Of a stretch of 64,000 bases of DNA, positions 1,916 through 41,240 are shown piece after piece. Location of the stretch: assembly GCF_000234355.1 (NCBI RefSeq), contig NZ_AGQV01000001.1:558001-622000 (forward strand), read 5' to 3'. A program made the position numbers and the translations under genes. The DNA is from Gluconobacter morbifer G707. GTDB taxonomy: Bacteria > Pseudomonadota > Alphaproteobacteria > Acetobacterales > Acetobacteraceae. Below the pieces are notes generated by a model. The model was given only the letters and a program-made list of their open reading frames with translations. It had not been told where the DNA came from and ran no database searches. Each line of letters opens with the position of its first letter. Position 1 is the stretch's first letter.

Positions 1916-3634
1916 ATGGACATCAAGCGTATTCTTGCGGCCACCATTCTCTCGGCCCTCATCCTGATCGGTTTCGACTATTTCATGCCGAAACCCCATC
2001 AGGACAGTCATCCCGTGATCCCTCATACGCCTGCGGCACAGGTCCAGAGCAGCCCGTCTGCACCGGCGGCTTCTGCCCCGGCTGCTGAAACCAGTGTGGT
2101 GGCGCGGCGGATTCCGGTCAGCAGTCCTGATGTCAGGGGTTCGCTGAATCTGAAGGGGGCCATGCTGGATGATCTGGTCTTGACGCATTATCGCGAGACG
2201 CTGGCCAAGGACAGTCCGCTGGTGCGTCTGCTGGACAATGCAGGCAGCAAGACGCCGACGTTCGTCGTGATCGGCTGGACCAATGCTCCGGGTTCCAACG
2301 CTGTGGTTCCTGACCTGAACACGGTGTGGGACAGTTCGGATGCGCAGCTTTCGCCGGAGCGTCCGGTCACGCTACGCTGGGATAACGGGCACGGTCTGAC
2401 ATTCATCATCCGGATTTCCCTGGATCAGCATTACATGTTCTCCGTCGAGCAGACGGTCGAGAACCATTCGGGTCAGCCGGTGTCGCTTCTGCCGTTCCAG
2501 CGTGTGCAGCGGGATTATCTGGCGCATGAAGGGACATGGACTGCTCATGAAGGCCCCATTGCCGTCATGGATGGCCGTCTGGAAGACGAAAGCTACAAGA
2601 ATCTCCGCAAGGCCGCTGATCATCCGGACAACACCTACTGGGCCCAGAGTGGCACGCAGGGCTGGGACGGGATCAGTGACAAGTACTGGCTGACGGCCAT
2701 TGCGCCGGAAGCGGGTGCGCCCGTTACGGCCGGTTTCAGGTATATTCCGGGTGCGCCGGGTTCATACCAGATCGGTTTTGCGAGCCAGAATGCCGTCCAG
2801 CTCATGCCGAACGCCTCCATCAGCCAGAAGACGCATGTCTTTGCCGGTGCAAAGGTGGTCAGCATGTTGCAGGCCTACAGCCATGACCTGCGAATCCCCG
2901 GTTTCGACAAGGCGATCGATTTCGGGTGGTTCAGCTTCCTGACCCGGCCGATCCTGTATCTTCTGCACTGGCTGTATGTGCATCTGGGCAATTTCGGTCT
3001 GGCGCTGATGGCTCTGACGCTGATCGTGAAGATCGTGCTGTTCCCGCTGGCGTCCAAGGCGGCGGTCTCTTCCGCACGGATGCGGATGCTGGCGCCAAAG
3101 ATCAAGGAGATCCGGGAGAAGTTCAAGGACGATCCCATGGCGATGAACCAGCGGGTCATGGGGTTGTATCGGGAAGAGGGCGTCAATCCGGCCAGTGGCT
3201 GTCTGCCCGTTCTGATCCAGGCGCCGATCTTCTTCTGTCTTTACAAGATGCTCAACATCAGCATCGACGAGCGCCACGCGCCTTTCTTTGGCTGGATCCG
3301 TGATCTTTCGGTGCCGGACCCGACGAATGTGTTCAATCTGTTCGGTCTGCTGCCATTTGACCCGACGGCTTATGGTTCGTTCCTGCATGTCAGCGTCTGG
3401 GGCGTGGCCCTTGGTCTGACCTTCTGGCTGCTCCAGCGCCAGACGACGGTCAGTCTCGACCCCGCGCAGGCCCGTGTCATGCAGTTCACGCCGTTGATGT
3501 ACGTGTTCATCATGTCCGGCTTCCCGGCCAGTCTTCTGGTGTACTACACGTGGAACAACCTGCTGACGTTTGCCCAGCAGACCTTCATCCAGCGGCGTAC
3601 AAAGCTGCCGGTTCCCGTTTCGCCGCGTCGCTGA
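1916..3634 (+). CDS. yidC: Membrane protein insertase YidC
   Basis: YidC inserts and folds inner-membrane proteins, alone or with SecYEG. The 572-residue protein starts MDIKRILAATILSALILIGFDYF, a typical signal-anchor, followed by a Pro/Ala-rich linker, the large periplasmic beta domain (about residues 70-340) and the conserved C-terminal five-helix region (about 350-560: WFSFLTRPILYLLHWLY, then the LMALTLIVKIVLFPL helix and the NPASGCLPVLIQAPIFF helix). The TTG at 1847 would add 23 residues without homology, so I use the ATG at 1916. It is followed after six bases by engB. Function is secure. Confidence 0.97.
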   Translation: MDIKRILAATILSALILIGFDYFMPKPHQDSHPVIPHTPAAQVQSSPSAPAASAPAAETSVVARRIPVSSPDVRGSLNLKGAMLDDLVLTHYRETLAKDSPLVRLLDNAGSKTPTFVVIGWTNAPGSNAVVPDLNTVWDSSDAQLSPERPVTLRWDNGHGLTFIIRISLDQHYMFSVEQTVENHSGQPVSLLPFQRVQRDYLAHEGTWTAHEGPIAVMDGRLEDESYKNLRKAADHPDNTYWAQSGTQGWDGISDKYWLTAIAPEAGAPVTAGFRYIPGAPGSYQIGFASQNAVQLMPNASISQKTHVFAGAKVVSMLQAYSHDLRIPGFDKAIDFGWFSFLTRPILYLLHWLYVHLGNFGLALMALTLIVKIVLFPLASKAAVSSARMRMLAPKIKEIREKFKDDPMAMNQRVMGLYREEGVNPASGCLPVLIQAPIFFCLYKMLNISIDERHAPFFGWIRDLSVPDPTNVFNLFGLLPFDPTAYGSFLHVSVWGVALGLTFWLLQRQTTVSLDPAQARVMQFTPLMYVFIMSGFPASLLVYYTWNNLLTFAQQTFIQRRTKLPVPVSPRR

Positions 3635-3640
3635 GGAAGC

Positions 3641-4321
3641 ATGAAAGAAATCGCCGGTCCCCCGACCGAAGAGCAGATCGAAGCTGGCCGTCTCCTGTTT
3701 GCGGGGGACTGCCAGTTTTTCTTTGGCTCGCAGACCATTGACCAGCTTCCGCCCGTCGGGCGGCCGGAAGTGGCTTTTGCCGGGCGCTCCAATGTGGGCA
3801 AGTCCAGCCTGATCAATGCCCTGACGAACCGCAGGGCTCTCGCGCGGGCATCCTCCGAGCCGGGGCGGACGAAGCAGCTCAATTTCTTCAATCTGGCGGA
3901 TCGTCTGACGCTGGTGGACATGCCGGGATACGGTTTCGCCAAGGCCTCCAAATCGGTCAAGGAAGACTGGCAGGGCATGATGTTCGCCTATCTGCGCGGA
4001 CGGACGACATTGAGCCGGGTCATTCTTCTGCTGGATGCCCGGATCGAACTGAAGAAGTCCGACCGTGAGGTGATGGAACTGCTGGACCGTGCTGCGGTGG
4101 TTTTCCAGATTGTTCTCACGAAGTGCGATCAGGTCCGTCCCAAGGCACTTGAAGCCAGGACGGCGGAGGTTGAAGCCCTCGCGTTGAAACATGCGGCGGC
4201 CTATCCCCGCATCGTCTGCACCAGCAGCGAAACGGGCGAAGGCATTGAAGACCTGAGGGCGGAAATTGCCCGTTTTGCGGATCCGGTTCCAGCGGCAGGG
4301 GAAGGAGAGCGTCATCCATGA
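3641..4321 (+). CDS. engB: Ribosome biogenesis GTP-binding protein EngB (YsxC/YihA)
   Basis: This 226-residue TRAFAC GTPase is needed for 50S subunit assembly. G1 is GRSNVGKSS (48-56), the switch region reads [10 protein letters not shown]3 is VDMPGYGFA and G4 is TKCD. The N-terminal 25 residues are a short extension. It sits six bases after yidC and its stop overlaps the argB start (ATGA), the usual alphaproteobacterial order yidC-engB-argB. All nucleotide-binding motifs are intact. Confidence 0.96.
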
Positions 4322-5253
4322 GCAAGAAGACCCATAGCCAGAAACTGCCGGAAGTTCCGCCGGTGGTTGATATGCAGGATGCCCAGCAGCAGGCGGCGAT
4401 CCTGGCCAGGGCACTGCCCTATCTCCGCCGTTATGCAGGCGATACCATCGTCGTGAAATATGGCGGCCATGCCATGGGCGACGGCACGCTGGCCAGTGCG
4501 TTCGGATATGATATCGCGCTTCTCAAGCTCGTCGGGATCAATCCGATCGTGGTGCATGGTGGTGGCCCCCAGATCAGCGTGATGCTGGACAGGCTGAACC
4601 TGCGTTCGGAATTTGTGGATGGCTTGCGGGTGACGGACCAGGAAATGGTCGAAGTCATCGAGATGGTGCTCTCCGGGCGCGTGAACAAGCAGGTGGCTGA
4701 GCTGATCAACCGCGCCGGTGCCATGGCCGTCGGTATTTCCGGCAAGGATGGCAGCCTGCTTCAGGCCCGCAAGCTGATCCGGACGAAACGTGACGCAAAG
4801 ACGGGCGCGGAGCAGGCTCTGGATCTCGGTTTTGTGGGACAGCCCCACAAGGTTGACCCGCGTGTGCTCTACGCTCTTCTGGGGTCGGGACTGATCCCGG
4901 TGGTCGCGCCCGTCGGGATTGGTGAGGATGGGGAGACCTACAACATCAATGCCGATACGGCAGCGGGCGCCATCGCAGGGGCAGTCAATGCATCCCGTCT
5001 GCTGATGCTGACGGATGTGCCGGGTGTTCTGGATGAAAATGGCAGTCTGATCGAGGAGCTGACGGCTGACGAAGCCTATCGTCGCATTGCCAATGGTTCG
5101 ATTTCCGGCGGGATGATCCCGAAGGTCGAGACGTGCCTGGAAGCCGTCAAGGCCGGTGCGAAGGCAGCCGTCATTCTGGACGGACGGGTACCACATAGCT
5201 GCCTGCTGGAGCTCTTTACGCGGGCCGGCCCGGGAACGCTCATCAAGACCTGA
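4318..5253 (+). CDS. argB: Acetylglutamate kinase
   Basis: ArgB phosphorylates N-acetyl-L-glutamate, the second step of the acetylated arginine route, in the cytosol. The 311-residue protein has the amino-acid-kinase landmarks [10 protein letters not shown] near residue 45, GGGPQIS near 80, the ADTAAGAIA region and the TDVPGV motif, then [12 protein letters not shown] near 260. The N-terminal helix ([24 protein letters not shown]) is the type found in arginine-sensitive hexameric ArgB enzymes, so feedback control is likely though not shown. It is the last gene of the rpmH operon block; the gene after it is convergent. Confidence 0.96.
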
Positions 5254-37991: not shown

Positions 37992-38189
37992 CTATTTCTG
38001 CCCGTTTTCCTGTGGCTTTTCGTAACTGAAGGGGAGAGAGACCTCTAATATTTCTCCCTCTGTGTTTTCAACGGGTTTGTCACGACCGAAGCGGTTCGCA
38101 AACCAGTCCGAAATCTGCTCGCGGAAAAAGATGCAGTAAACGGTTGGCCAGACGATGATACAGAGCAGGATCAGGAAATAATTCAGCAT
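37992..38189 (-). CDS. Small single-pass membrane protein
   Basis: Starting at the ATG 38189, which has GGAAGGAG about six bases upstream, the frame gives 65 residues: MLNYFLILLCIIVWPTVYCIF forms one membrane helix, followed by a cytoplasmic, mostly charged tail ending KPQENGQK. A longer frame to 38405 exists but lacks a ribosome site. I do not recognise the family. Convergent with gshB (six-base gap), divergent from pmtA. Confidence 0.65.
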   Translation of the reverse strand: MLNYFLILLCIIVWPTVYCIFFREQISDWFANRFGRDKPVENTEGEILEVSLPFSYEKPQENGQK

Positions 38190-38355
38190 GAGAGCTCCTT
38201 CCTGAGCGGCGTGTGGATCAGGATGTGAACCGCTCATCTGCATGGTGTGTCTTGCCAGATGCCTGTCCGGAAGGGCAAGAAGGACCCAGCTGAACAGGTT
38301 TCGGACATGCTTTCTCACTTTTGGTGAAAAGCTGACACAGAAGGTCCTATATTCT

Positions 38356-39036
38356 ATGTCCTCCACTCTCTCCCCGCGTTCTGCACTGGACGCGGAGGCC
38401 GTCAAAACGGCCTATCGCCGATGGGCGCGTGTTTATGATACGGTTTTCGGCGGAATTTCCGGTTACGGGCGCAAGCGTGCCGTCGCCGCCGTCAACGCCC
38501 TGCCCGGGGAGAAAGTACTGGAAGTCGGCGTCGGGACGGGCCTTGCCCTGCCAGCCTATTCCAAAAACAAACGCATCACGGGCATTGATCTTTCCGAGGA
38601 CATGCTCGAACGCGCCCGTCTGCGTGTTCTTCAGGATCATCTGACGAATGTCGATGACCTGCTGGAAATGGACGCTGAAGCGACCACGTTCGCTGATGAC
38701 AGCTTCGATATCGCGGTTGCGATGTTCGTTGCATCCGTCGTCCCGCATCCGGACCGTCTTCTGGCGGAACTCAAGCGCGTCGTGCGTCCGGGTGGTCATA
38801 TCCTGTTCGTGAACCACTTCCTGGCCACTGGTGGTCTGCGTCTGACGGTCGAACGGGGCATGGCGCGCGCTTCCCGCTCGCTGGGCTGGCATCCGGACTT
38901 CGCCATCGAGTCTCTGCTGCCGCCGGAAGACCTGCGCCGGGCGACCCTGACCCCTGTTCCACCTGCCGGACTGTTTACACTCGTGACATTGCCGCAATGC
39001 GAGAGTAAAAGCGACGCAGCAGCCCTGGTCGCCTGA
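38356..39036 (+). CDS. pmtA: Phosphatidylethanolamine N-methyltransferase (PmtA type)
   Basis: A 226-residue SAM-dependent methyltransferase (Rhodobacter PmtA-like) that methylates phosphatidylethanolamine towards phosphatidylcholine. SAM motif I is VLEVGVGTGLALPAY, motif II region VDDLLEMDAEA, and the post-motif FDIAVAMFVASVVPHP and VVRPGGHILFVNHF are present. The assignment to PmtA comes from the YRRWARVYDTVFGG start and overall length; it might also be a related class I methyltransferase. It lies 84 bases before the oxidase-like gene. Acetic acid bacteria make phosphatidylcholine, which supports the call. Confidence 0.85.
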   Translation: MSSTLSPRSALDAEAVKTAYRRWARVYDTVFGGISGYGRKRAVAAVNALPGEKVLEVGVGTGLALPAYSKNKRITGIDLSEDMLERARLRVLQDHLTNVDDLLEMDAEATTFADDSFDIAVAMFVASVVPHPDRLLAELKRVVRPGGHILFVNHFLATGGLRLTVERGMARASRSLGWHPDFAIESLLPPEDLRRATLTPVPPAGLFTLVTLPQCESKSDAAALVA

Positions 39037-39120
39037 TCGGCGTATGGTTCCGGTTCTGCCGGCGCCGAGTATTCCGACGCTCGCTGCGGTATTCCTTGGC
39101 AAGGGACCGAATACGCGATC

Positions 39121-40293
39121 ATGATACCTCAGGCCTACGACTCCAGTTCTTCTCTTTCCAGCCGTCGTTTGGGAACGTCCTTCATTCTTCTGGCACTTTT
39201 CGCCGGACTGCTGGGAGGAGCACTGGCCCTTCCGGTACTTCAGGTTCATCCAACGGCTGGTCAGACGCTGTGTCACGGGATCCTGATGACGTTCTTCGTG
39301 GTCTGTCCCGCAGCACTGGGCGGGTTCGGGCAATGGCTTCTGCCAGAGGAACTGGGAACCTCCCGAAGTGTCCTGCCGGGCGCGACCCTTGCAGGATTTG
39401 GGTTCCTCTCCGCAGGGATTGTTCTGCTTCCCGTCATGCCGCTGGCTGCACTGCTTCTCTGGGCTCTTGGTAGCCTGTCCGTCGCAACGGATGTCATCAC
39501 CACCTGTCTGGAAGGGCGGACAGTCCGCTTCCGCGGGATGTCCCCGCTGGCTTGGTCTCTTCTCGCTACGGCGTCTGGTGTGGTGGTGATCGCGCCGGTT
39601 CTGGCTGCTATCGTAACGCGCGTGTTCTGGACCGGTTCCCGTACCGTTACTCCGGAAACCCTGGTGCAGATGCTGCATCTGCCCGAGACGGCCCTGATGC
39701 TGACGCCGGCTCTCGGACTGATCACATATCTGCTGCCCCAGAAGGCAGGACAGTCCGCCTGCTGGAAAGTCGCTCCCTATGTCTTTGCAGTCACCGGGGT
39801 GCTGGGGCCGCTGGTCTGGGTGAACAGCTTTTTTGGTAATGTGCCGGCACCGGTTGTCCATAACCTTCTTCTGCTCAGCCAGATCGTGCCATCCGTTCTT
39901 CTGATTGGTGCCCTGTGCCGTGATGTCTGGACACAGCATCGCGAACTGGACGGAACGGCGTTCTGGGCGCTGGGCAGTCTCGTCCTGTTCACCGCAGGCT
40001 GGCTGTCGGACGTCATGCCCGGACATGTCATTGATCATTCCGCTGCTGCTTTCGGCGGGGTTATGGCGATCTGCGGAGGCTTTTATGCCTGGCTCCAGGC
40101 CCAGTTGCCGAATCGCGTTCCCGGGGCTCTTATCCGTGGCCATGCTCTCCTGACCGTGGTGGGCGCCATCTGCTCGGTGCTGCCGCAGTTCATGGTGGTG
40201 GGCGATGCCGTGATGGGGCTTAGTCTGATGACATTCGGGCTTCTTGGGCTTTTCCTGATCAGGGAGACCGGTCGCAACCGGGTATCCGCATGA
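39121..40293 (+). CDS. Degenerate heme-copper oxidase subunit I-like membrane protein
   Basis: The 390-residue protein has about twelve hydrophobic helices and aligns by eye along most of CtaD despite being about 140 residues shorter. LGTSFILLALFAGLLGGAL matches helix I; LCHGILMTFFVVCPAALGGFGQW matches helix II with low-spin heme ligand His52; LPETALMLTPALGLITYLL replaces HPEVYILILPGFGIISH of helix VI; PYVFAVTGVLGPLVWVNSFFG has Asn-Ser where helix VII has the His-His CuB pair; VIDHSAAAFGGVMAICGGFYAW matches helix X, keeping the second low-spin ligand (His306) but with Ile304 at the high-spin position. So oxygen reduction is not expected. It overlaps ctaB by four bases and is intact, hence probably selected for another role. 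Confidence 0.85.
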   Translation: MIPQAYDSSSSLSSRRLGTSFILLALFAGLLGGALALPVLQVHPTAGQTLCHGILMTFFVVCPAALGGFGQWLLPEELGTSRSVLPGATLAGFGFLSAGIVLLPVMPLAALLLWALGSLSVATDVITTCLEGRTVRFRGMSPLAWSLLATASGVVVIAPVLAAIVTRVFWTGSRTVTPETLVQMLHLPETALMLTPALGLITYLLPQKAGQSACWKVAPYVFAVTGVLGPLVWVNSFFGNVPAPVVHNLLLLSQIVPSVLLIGALCRDVWTQHRELDGTAFWALGSLVLFTAGWLSDVMPGHVIDHSAAAFGGVMAICGGFYAWLQAQLPNRVPGALIRGHALLTVVGAICSVLPQFMVVGDAVMGLSLMTFGLLGLFLIRETGRNRVSA

Positions 40294-41240
40294 GCAAAGC
40301 TGTAACGCCCCTGAACCCTCAGGGGATTTTTTCTGTTCCGGGTCATAATGGTGATCCGTCCCTGCGGGAGTGGCTGGCGCTCCTGAAGCCGAGGGTGATT
40401 TCCCTCGTTGTCTTCACGGGAGCCGCTGGCATGGCCGTCGCGCCCCGCTGGCCGTCCATCCCGGTGGGGCTGGTGACCATTCTGTGCATCTGCATCGGGG
40501 CAGGGGCGGCTGGCGCCATCAATATGTGGTATGACCGCGACATTGATGCGGTCATGCGTCGTACCAATGTTCGCCCCATTCCGGATGGGCGGATGCCGGA
40601 GCAGAGCGCGCTGGTTTATGGCGTGGTGCTGTCCGTCATGTCCGTGCTGGTCCTGTGGGTTGCCACAAACGCCCTGGCAGCCGGGATTCTGGCGTTTTCG
40701 ATTTTCTTTTACAGCGTCATCTACACGATGTGGCTCAAGCGCAGTACGCCGCAGAACATCGTGATCGGCGGGGCGGCGGGGGCTTTTCCGCCCATGATCG
40801 GCTGGGCTGCCTCCATGGATTCCATGGCCATCCTGCCTGTGGCGATGTTTGCCATCGTTTTCCTGTGGACGCCGCCGCATTTCTGGTCCCTGTCCCTGTA
40901 TGCCTGCAAGGATTACGACAAGGCGGGCATCCCCATGCTGCCGGTTGTTCGTGGTGCGCGGCATACGCGCTGGCAGATCCTGATCTACACCTTCATCCTG
41001 ACGGCTGTTTCGCTGGTGCCGTCCTTTGTCCATGAATGCGGCATGACCTATACGGTCGTGACCAGTCTTCTGGATCTTGGCTTCATTCTCTGTGCTGTCC
41101 GCGTCCTGATGGACAAGCAGGACGCCAATGGCGTCAGCCTGACGAAGGACAAGCCGGCGCGTTTCGCTTTCCGCTACTCGCTGGCCTATCTTTTCCTGCT
41201 GTTCTGTGGACTGCTCGTTGACCGGGTGCTTCTGGCATGA
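40290..41240 (+). CDS. ctaB: Protoheme IX farnesyltransferase (heme O synthase)
   Basis: CtaB (CyoE/Cox10) adds a farnesyl group to heme b to make heme O, needed by bo3-type and aa3-type oxidases. The 316-residue UbiA-family protein shows AGAAGAINMWYDRDIDAVMRRTN-type allylic diphosphate motif (N-x3-D-x-x-x-D: NMWYDRDID near 81-90), the YTMWLKRSTPQNIVIGGAAGA loop and the second aspartate-containing loop YACKDYDKAGIPMLPV. It starts four bases inside the oxidase-like gene, and the coxF-like mini gene starts four bases before its end, so all three are coupled. Confidence 0.95.
   Translation: MSKAVTPLNPQGIFSVPGHNGDPSLREWLALLKPRVISLVVFTGAAGMAVAPRWPSIPVGLVTILCICIGAGAAGAINMWYDRDIDAVMRRTNVRPIPDGRMPEQSALVYGVVLSVMSVLVLWVATNALAAGILAFSIFFYSVIYTMWLKRSTPQNIVIGGAAGAFPPMIGWAASMDSMAILPVAMFAIVFLWTPPHFWSLSLYACKDYDKAGIPMLPVVRGARHTRWQILIYTFILTAVSLVPSFVHECGMTYTVVTSLLDLGFILCAVRVLMDKQDANGVSLTKDKPARFAFRYSLAYLFLLFCGLLVDRVLLA

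Follow-up and report, generated by a model that had tools for sequence, protein, structure and literature searches.

We analysed a stretch of 64,000 nucleotides from Gluconobacter morbifer G707 (the window) and found that an open reading frame (ORF) at positions 39121..40293 of its plus strand encodes a deranged homologue of CtaD, subunit I of cytochrome c oxidase (COX1 family). The protein has lost the oxygen-reduction site of CtaD. Comparison of the sequences of its relatives confirms that two putative axial histidines of the low-spin heme site, His52 and His306, have been kept across a large group of acetic acid bacteria. We take the CtaD residues matched by these histidines to be the ligands of heme a. 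Judging from the conserved residues, the protein quite probably binds a heme through this pair. The overall explanation we favour is that the ctaD remnant would be kept as a working membrane protein with one heme, handing heme on beside the heme O synthase CtaB; we regard it as evenly balanced between true and false. The hand-off itself, taken as a separate claim, falls somewhat short of probable.

The ORF runs from an ATG to a TGA without interruption and encodes 390 amino acids, in agreement with the intact frame of the original prediction. The protein matches the Pfam family COX1 (PF00115) with an E-value of 3.1e-13 and 49.8 bits (cut-off 34.8) and reaches 43.1 bits against the NCBIfam CtaD model TIGR02891 (cut-off 670.75). 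Since the first threshold is passed and the second is widely missed, it is homologous to CtaD yet lies far outside the model of a working oxidase. COX1 was its sole match in a Pfam scan at E up to 1, which returned no SURF1 domain (PF02104). A predicted model superposes on the entire COX1 fold, with His52 near the start of a helix (residues 46-72) and His306 immediately ahead of another (residues 307-328). Helices I, II, VI, VII, X and XI had previously been matched to CtaD from the sequence; the homology stands, but the list of helices was too narrow.

In alignments to solved structures, His52 (codon 39274..39276, plus strand) falls on the helix II ligand of heme a, residue 102 of Rhodobacter (1m56) and 94 of Paracoccus (1ar1), and His306 (codon 40036..40038, plus strand) on the helix X ligand, the second histidine of the HFH motif. 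The earlier assignment of the pair to Paracoccus His94 and His413 is thereby upheld. We read 107 distinct deranged sequences, which represent 19 genus groups: all 107 have His306, and 106 have His52. The MAFFT alignment behind these counts could be biased towards pairing histidines with each other where rows are very distant; L147-L150 were read by eye. The one sequence without an aligned His52 (L194) has a gap there; its ORF is frameshifted, and the N-terminal part with the HG motif sits in another frame. The divergent L149, for which Pfam gave nothing at E up to 1, keeps both histidines. Pairwise identity within the set has a median of 28% and a minimum of 14%. Of 302 columns that are invariant in the seven true CtaD sequences of the family, four show no substitution among the deranged sequences, and both heme a ligand columns belong to these four; the chance of this for two named columns is 1.3e-4, a value that takes no account of His and Trp being slow-changing kinds of residue. 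Residue 341 is His in 95 of the 107 relatives and Gln in 12.

The relatives were collected by a profile search over 397 genomes of the family, with matches, true CtaD included, in 357. The 107 sequences comprise 74 distinct sequences, 31 further loci and 4 neighbours of ctaB not picked up by the first profile, less 2 duplicates. Left out were L113/L031 (contig edge; His52 present, C-terminal half missing) and the duplicates L127 and L076. Forty genomes gave no profile match. Twenty of these were followed up: four (G104, G119, G165, G179) have the gene beside ctaB, one (G026) has ctaB in the shared gene order without it, and among the rest are genomes with true oxidase genes, with contig ends or lacking a good ctaB match. 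The census is a lower bound, with several relatives of group g65 and genomes beyond the 397 sampled lying outside it.

For the residues of the oxygen-reduction site and the proton route we assume the roles that they have in CtaD. The three CuB histidines, the heme a3 histidine and the cross-linked tyrosine are all absent from the 390-residue protein. LPETA (residues 187-191; 39679..39693, plus strand) replaces HPEVY, removing one CuB histidine and the catalytic tyrosine, and neither is found in any of the 107 relatives. The CuB His-His pair is replaced by Asn235-Ser236 (39823..39828, plus strand), positions at which His is kept in 45 and 10 relatives, respectively. Ile304 (40030..40032, plus strand) takes the place of the heme a3 ligand, the first histidine of HFH, which is kept in two relatives. 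The helix X motif reads Ile304-Asp305-His306, and GGFGQ is also present; the motifs read earlier (LPETA, Asn-Ser, IDH and GGFGQ) were all recovered in the translation. The question whether the CuB residues are always absent received a divided answer: no relative has all three jointly, but the single histidines of the His-His pair persist as counted above. Neither of the two refuting conditions set out earlier, CuB histidines placed elsewhere in the protein or homologues lacking His52 or His306, was borne out. The K-channel lysine and the propionate arginine pair are each kept in 0/107, and the arginine near the heme a formyl group in 10/107, with gaps in 56.

Purifying selection on the gene, surmised in the original prediction, is evident from the ratio of nonsynonymous to synonymous substitution rates (dN/dS). 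We aligned 122 pairs of more than 75% identity pair by pair; the 120 with dS >0.1, which share branches and are not independent, gave a median dN/dS of 0.086 (range 0.024-0.261). Among the pairs listed, 18 lie outside Gluconobacter (two with dS <0.1) and gave 0.077-0.316. A cruder first run on a many-row alignment, with 272 pairs chosen by a ctaB dS of 0.05-1, had yielded a median of 0.42 (5-95%: 0.07-0.80) versus 0.19 for ctaB. We attribute the higher value, short of proof, to pairs that are distant, saturated or badly aligned. Evolution of the gene is faster than that of ctaB, yet constrained, and none of the matches listed from the 397 genomes contains an internal stop. An antisense open frame of 598 amino acids (38347-40143, minus strand of the window) crosses the gene. 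The low dN/dS of the plus-strand frame suggests that it is a mere by-product of composition.

The gene is followed by ctaB (40290..41240, plus strand), which scores above the cut-offs of TIGR01473 and NF003349 and is the only heme O synthase gene found in the genome (next best match 21 bits). The TGA stop codon overlaps the ATG of ctaB in an ATGA (40290..40293, plus strand), consistent with the coupling noted earlier; the 4-base overlap recurs in many relatives, and others have a gap of a few bases. A methyltransferase gene (38356..39036, plus strand; PF08241) lies upstream, and the order gshB - methyltransferase - deranged ctaD - ctaB is found in 60/60 loci having the gene, followed by a Tim44-like gene in most loci long enough to include that position. 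Every complete locus examined has a ctaB homologue directly downstream (in a first set, each one except L113 at a contig edge; then 31/31 and 4/4). Because the gene precedes ctaB in every complete relative examined, the pairing is far beyond chance. A small ORF of 137 amino acids (37992-38405, minus strand) has no Pfam match over the cut-off and recurs between gshB and the methyltransferase gene in many relatives.

True ctaD genes of the family likewise adjoin ctaB. In three of seven true-CtaD loci the methyltransferase gene is located farther upstream, leaving a space that could hold one more gene, for example ctaC. A tree of 50 deranged and 9 true sequences separates the two sets across a single branch, which has a value of 100 in the Shimodaira-Hasegawa-like approximate likelihood ratio test (SH-aLRT). 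The tree was built by a quick method and has several long branches, two of them joined, and its inner order is not relied on. The split supports what appears from the sequences to be a single origin of the deranged set. Together with the shared gene order it shows, therefore, that the gene is the orthologue of ctaD, still at its original site although the remainder of the oxidase operon has been lost.

Two full-length COX1-family proteins of the source genome match CyoB of the bo3 quinol oxidase best, with 1120 and 901 bits (cut-off 1020). The second, divergent CyoB (901 bits) is encoded outside the window (locus L002, 976-3021, minus strand, contig C15). Unlike the setting of a true CtaD, this genome yielded no CtaA (heme A synthase) and no COX11, and its only COX3-family matches are neighbours of the two cyoB genes. 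Of the gene-bearing genomes examined, 19/19 encode a COX1-family protein that is full-length and CyoB-sized. We compared 36 acetous genomes, 32 with the gene and 4 without it. CtaA was found in 14/32 of the former and 0/4 of the latter (not found in the other 18/32), and cytochrome c1 in 25/32 and 4/4. SURF1 was found in 0/36 acetous genomes versus 7/7 genomes with true CtaD. The presence of the gene follows ctaB and CyoB; the CtaA and cytochrome c1 counts among gene-bearing genomes mean that neither heme A synthesis nor the bc1 complex is required. In one small genome (G109:C3:1150482-1151075) the cytochrome c1 match contains one in-frame TAA, and its bc1 complex is perhaps decaying. Four small genomes of the family, 1.9-2.1 Mb in size (G078, G114, G118, G164), lack any match to the gene and any CyoB-sized protein; their ctaB matches are all <=29 bits and their COX1-family matches all <=145 bits, three of them having a COX1-family protein in frames of 785-833 amino acids (139-145 bits).

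Based on these results we propose the following role for the protein. The rest of the cytochrome c oxidase would have been lost in acetic acid bacteria, with subunit I left in place. The remnant, which lacks the CuB, heme a3 and proton-route residues, would be incapable of O2 reduction; its fold is still that of COX1, and both axial histidines are in place. One bound bis-His heme is the best explanation for one axial pair being invariant while the other cofactor ligands are lost; it would be six-coordinate and located near the periplasmic side. Heme A is an unlikely ligand and in any case not a general one, since CtaA is missing from the source genome and from 18/32 gene-bearing genomes; the formyl arginine is kept in 10/107. 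Because no heme A synthase was found in the source genome, the heme there is expected to be b or o. The protein may take up or park farnesylated heme O (or its precursor, the heme b substrate) beside CtaB and pass it on to CyoB. Where the gene lies and which genomes have it both suggest the heme O path, and a heme carrier could fill the place of the missing SURF1. That ctaD turned once, in the ancestor of the acetic acid bacteria, into a heme O carrier from CtaB to the bo3 oxidase, standing in for SURF1, we put forward only tentatively and consider rather unlikely as a whole.

Several observations weigh against this proposal. SURF1 is also missing from the four acetous genomes without the gene, so its absence fits oxidase loss too. 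The linkage to ctaB is ancestral. Trp145 and Trp233, each present in 107/107 relatives, match the histidines in invariance, and the proposal does not account for them. One genome (G026) is a clear exception: its flanks are unchanged and it has ctaB together with two COX1-family proteins of full length, but the gene is gone; SURF1 is missing here too. At this locus (L151, ~2637-4569) ctaB adjoins the methyltransferase gene after a natural loss of the deranged ctaD; CtaB is hence not always in need of the gene. As true ctaD also lies beside ctaB and the flank order persists in G026, the coupling to ctaB, from which selection had been deduced, is weak evidence of it. According to the accessible portion of a citing paper (PMC6915089), CtaB and CtaA of Acetobacter pasteurianus were shown to be functional. 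In E. coli, heme O reaches the bo3 oxidase with no known helper, and no specific assembly protein beyond heme O synthase is known, as far as the available text of PMC9145763 goes. Together with G026 this implies that a heme hand-off step is not always needed.

Among the alternatives, a heme-independent structural partner giving CtaB stability in the membrane, as suggested in the part of PMC10715153 available to us, is unlikely. The neighbouring ctaB in all complete loci examined speaks for it, but that linkage is inherited, G026 has ctaB without the gene, and a pure scaffold would not require that two heme ligands stay invariant when the remaining cofactor ligands drift. An electron carrier with one heme, oxidising for example quinol or an orphan cytochrome c still reduced by bc1, is improbable as well. 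A bis-His heme at the place of heme a would be a redox site, and most gene-bearing genomes keep cytochrome c1 without a true CtaD beside ctaB. However, 7/32 of them have no cytochrome c1 match and 4/4 genomes without the gene have one, which weakens a partnership with bc1; moreover, a single heme site is left, a CuA domain and an acceptor site are lacking, and the gene it is linked to encodes a heme synthase. A protein that senses or stores heme and tunes CtaB activity to the demand for heme O shares the linkage and ligand data with the favoured explanation, but it is quite improbable, COX1 being the sole Pfam match and a signalling domain being absent. A pseudogene in decay, or an ORF preserved solely for translational coupling of ctaB, accords with the frameshifted L194, the clean loss in G026, the faster evolution and the start-stop overlap in many genomes, but we reject it as very improbable given the low dN/dS, the lack of internal stops among the matches listed, the gaps ahead of ctaB in some groups, and His and Trp residues that stay invariant at so low an identity, which coupling alone would not conserve.

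The abstract of Matsutani 2014 reportedly states that ctaD function was lost through accumulated mutations. The gene is not undescribed, as had been suspected: publications already describe it as a COX1 beside ctaB that is incomplete or deranged (PMC3751514 and PMC10715153, in their available parts). The former lists the A. pasteurianus 386B gene (APA386B_609) as a cytochrome c oxidase that is incomplete and probably inactive. The accessible text of the latter (2023), citing Matsutani 2014, describes an Acetobacter protein without any conserved metal-cofactor residue that probably stabilises CtaB. The arrangement it gives for acetic acid bacteria, a COX1-like gene clustered with ctaB, is found here; the loss of all metal-cofactor ligands is not, both heme a ligands being kept. 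In the available parts of two further papers, ctaB and ctaD with neighbouring locus tags are listed as conserved in three strains (PMC5158111), and, contrary to the view of a loss, a table note marks A. pasteurianus as having cytochrome c oxidase (PMC4596401). A term search of the accessible text of a Gluconobacter knockout-collection paper (PMC12041372) found nothing on this gene. The retained heme a ligand pair was found stated nowhere in the accessible open-licence PMC literature, although Matsutani 2014 may say more. As far as these searches go, the gene is known, and the retained bis-His site and its implications are new.

Compared with CtaD/COX1 of the aa3-type oxidases of Paracoccus and Rhodobacter, the protein is alike in its place before ctaB, its whole fold and both heme a histidines, and differs in lacking the CuB, heme a3, catalytic tyrosine, K-channel lysine and propionate arginine residues. 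The deranged COX1 of Acetobacter is the same gene in the same neighbourhood and bacterial group; it was reported as probably inactive (PMC3751514) and as having lost all metal ligands (PMC10715153, available part), whereas the heme a pair is in fact kept. CyoB (662 and 682 amino acids) is a complete oxidase, and the protein here has no oxidase site. SURF1-type chaperones, described in the available part of PMC5249081 as membrane proteins between heme synthesis and oxidase subunit I, may serve as a working analogue only: their Pfam family is a different one, and none was found in the acetous genomes.

The results correct the published claim of a total loss of metal ligands and present a natural separation-of-function COX1 that has retained one heme site of two and lost the other. 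Delivery of heme O to CyoB becomes a testable question in easily handled industrial bacteria. If the proposal is true, a fossil enzyme would have been reused as a chaperone of the very enzyme that replaced it.
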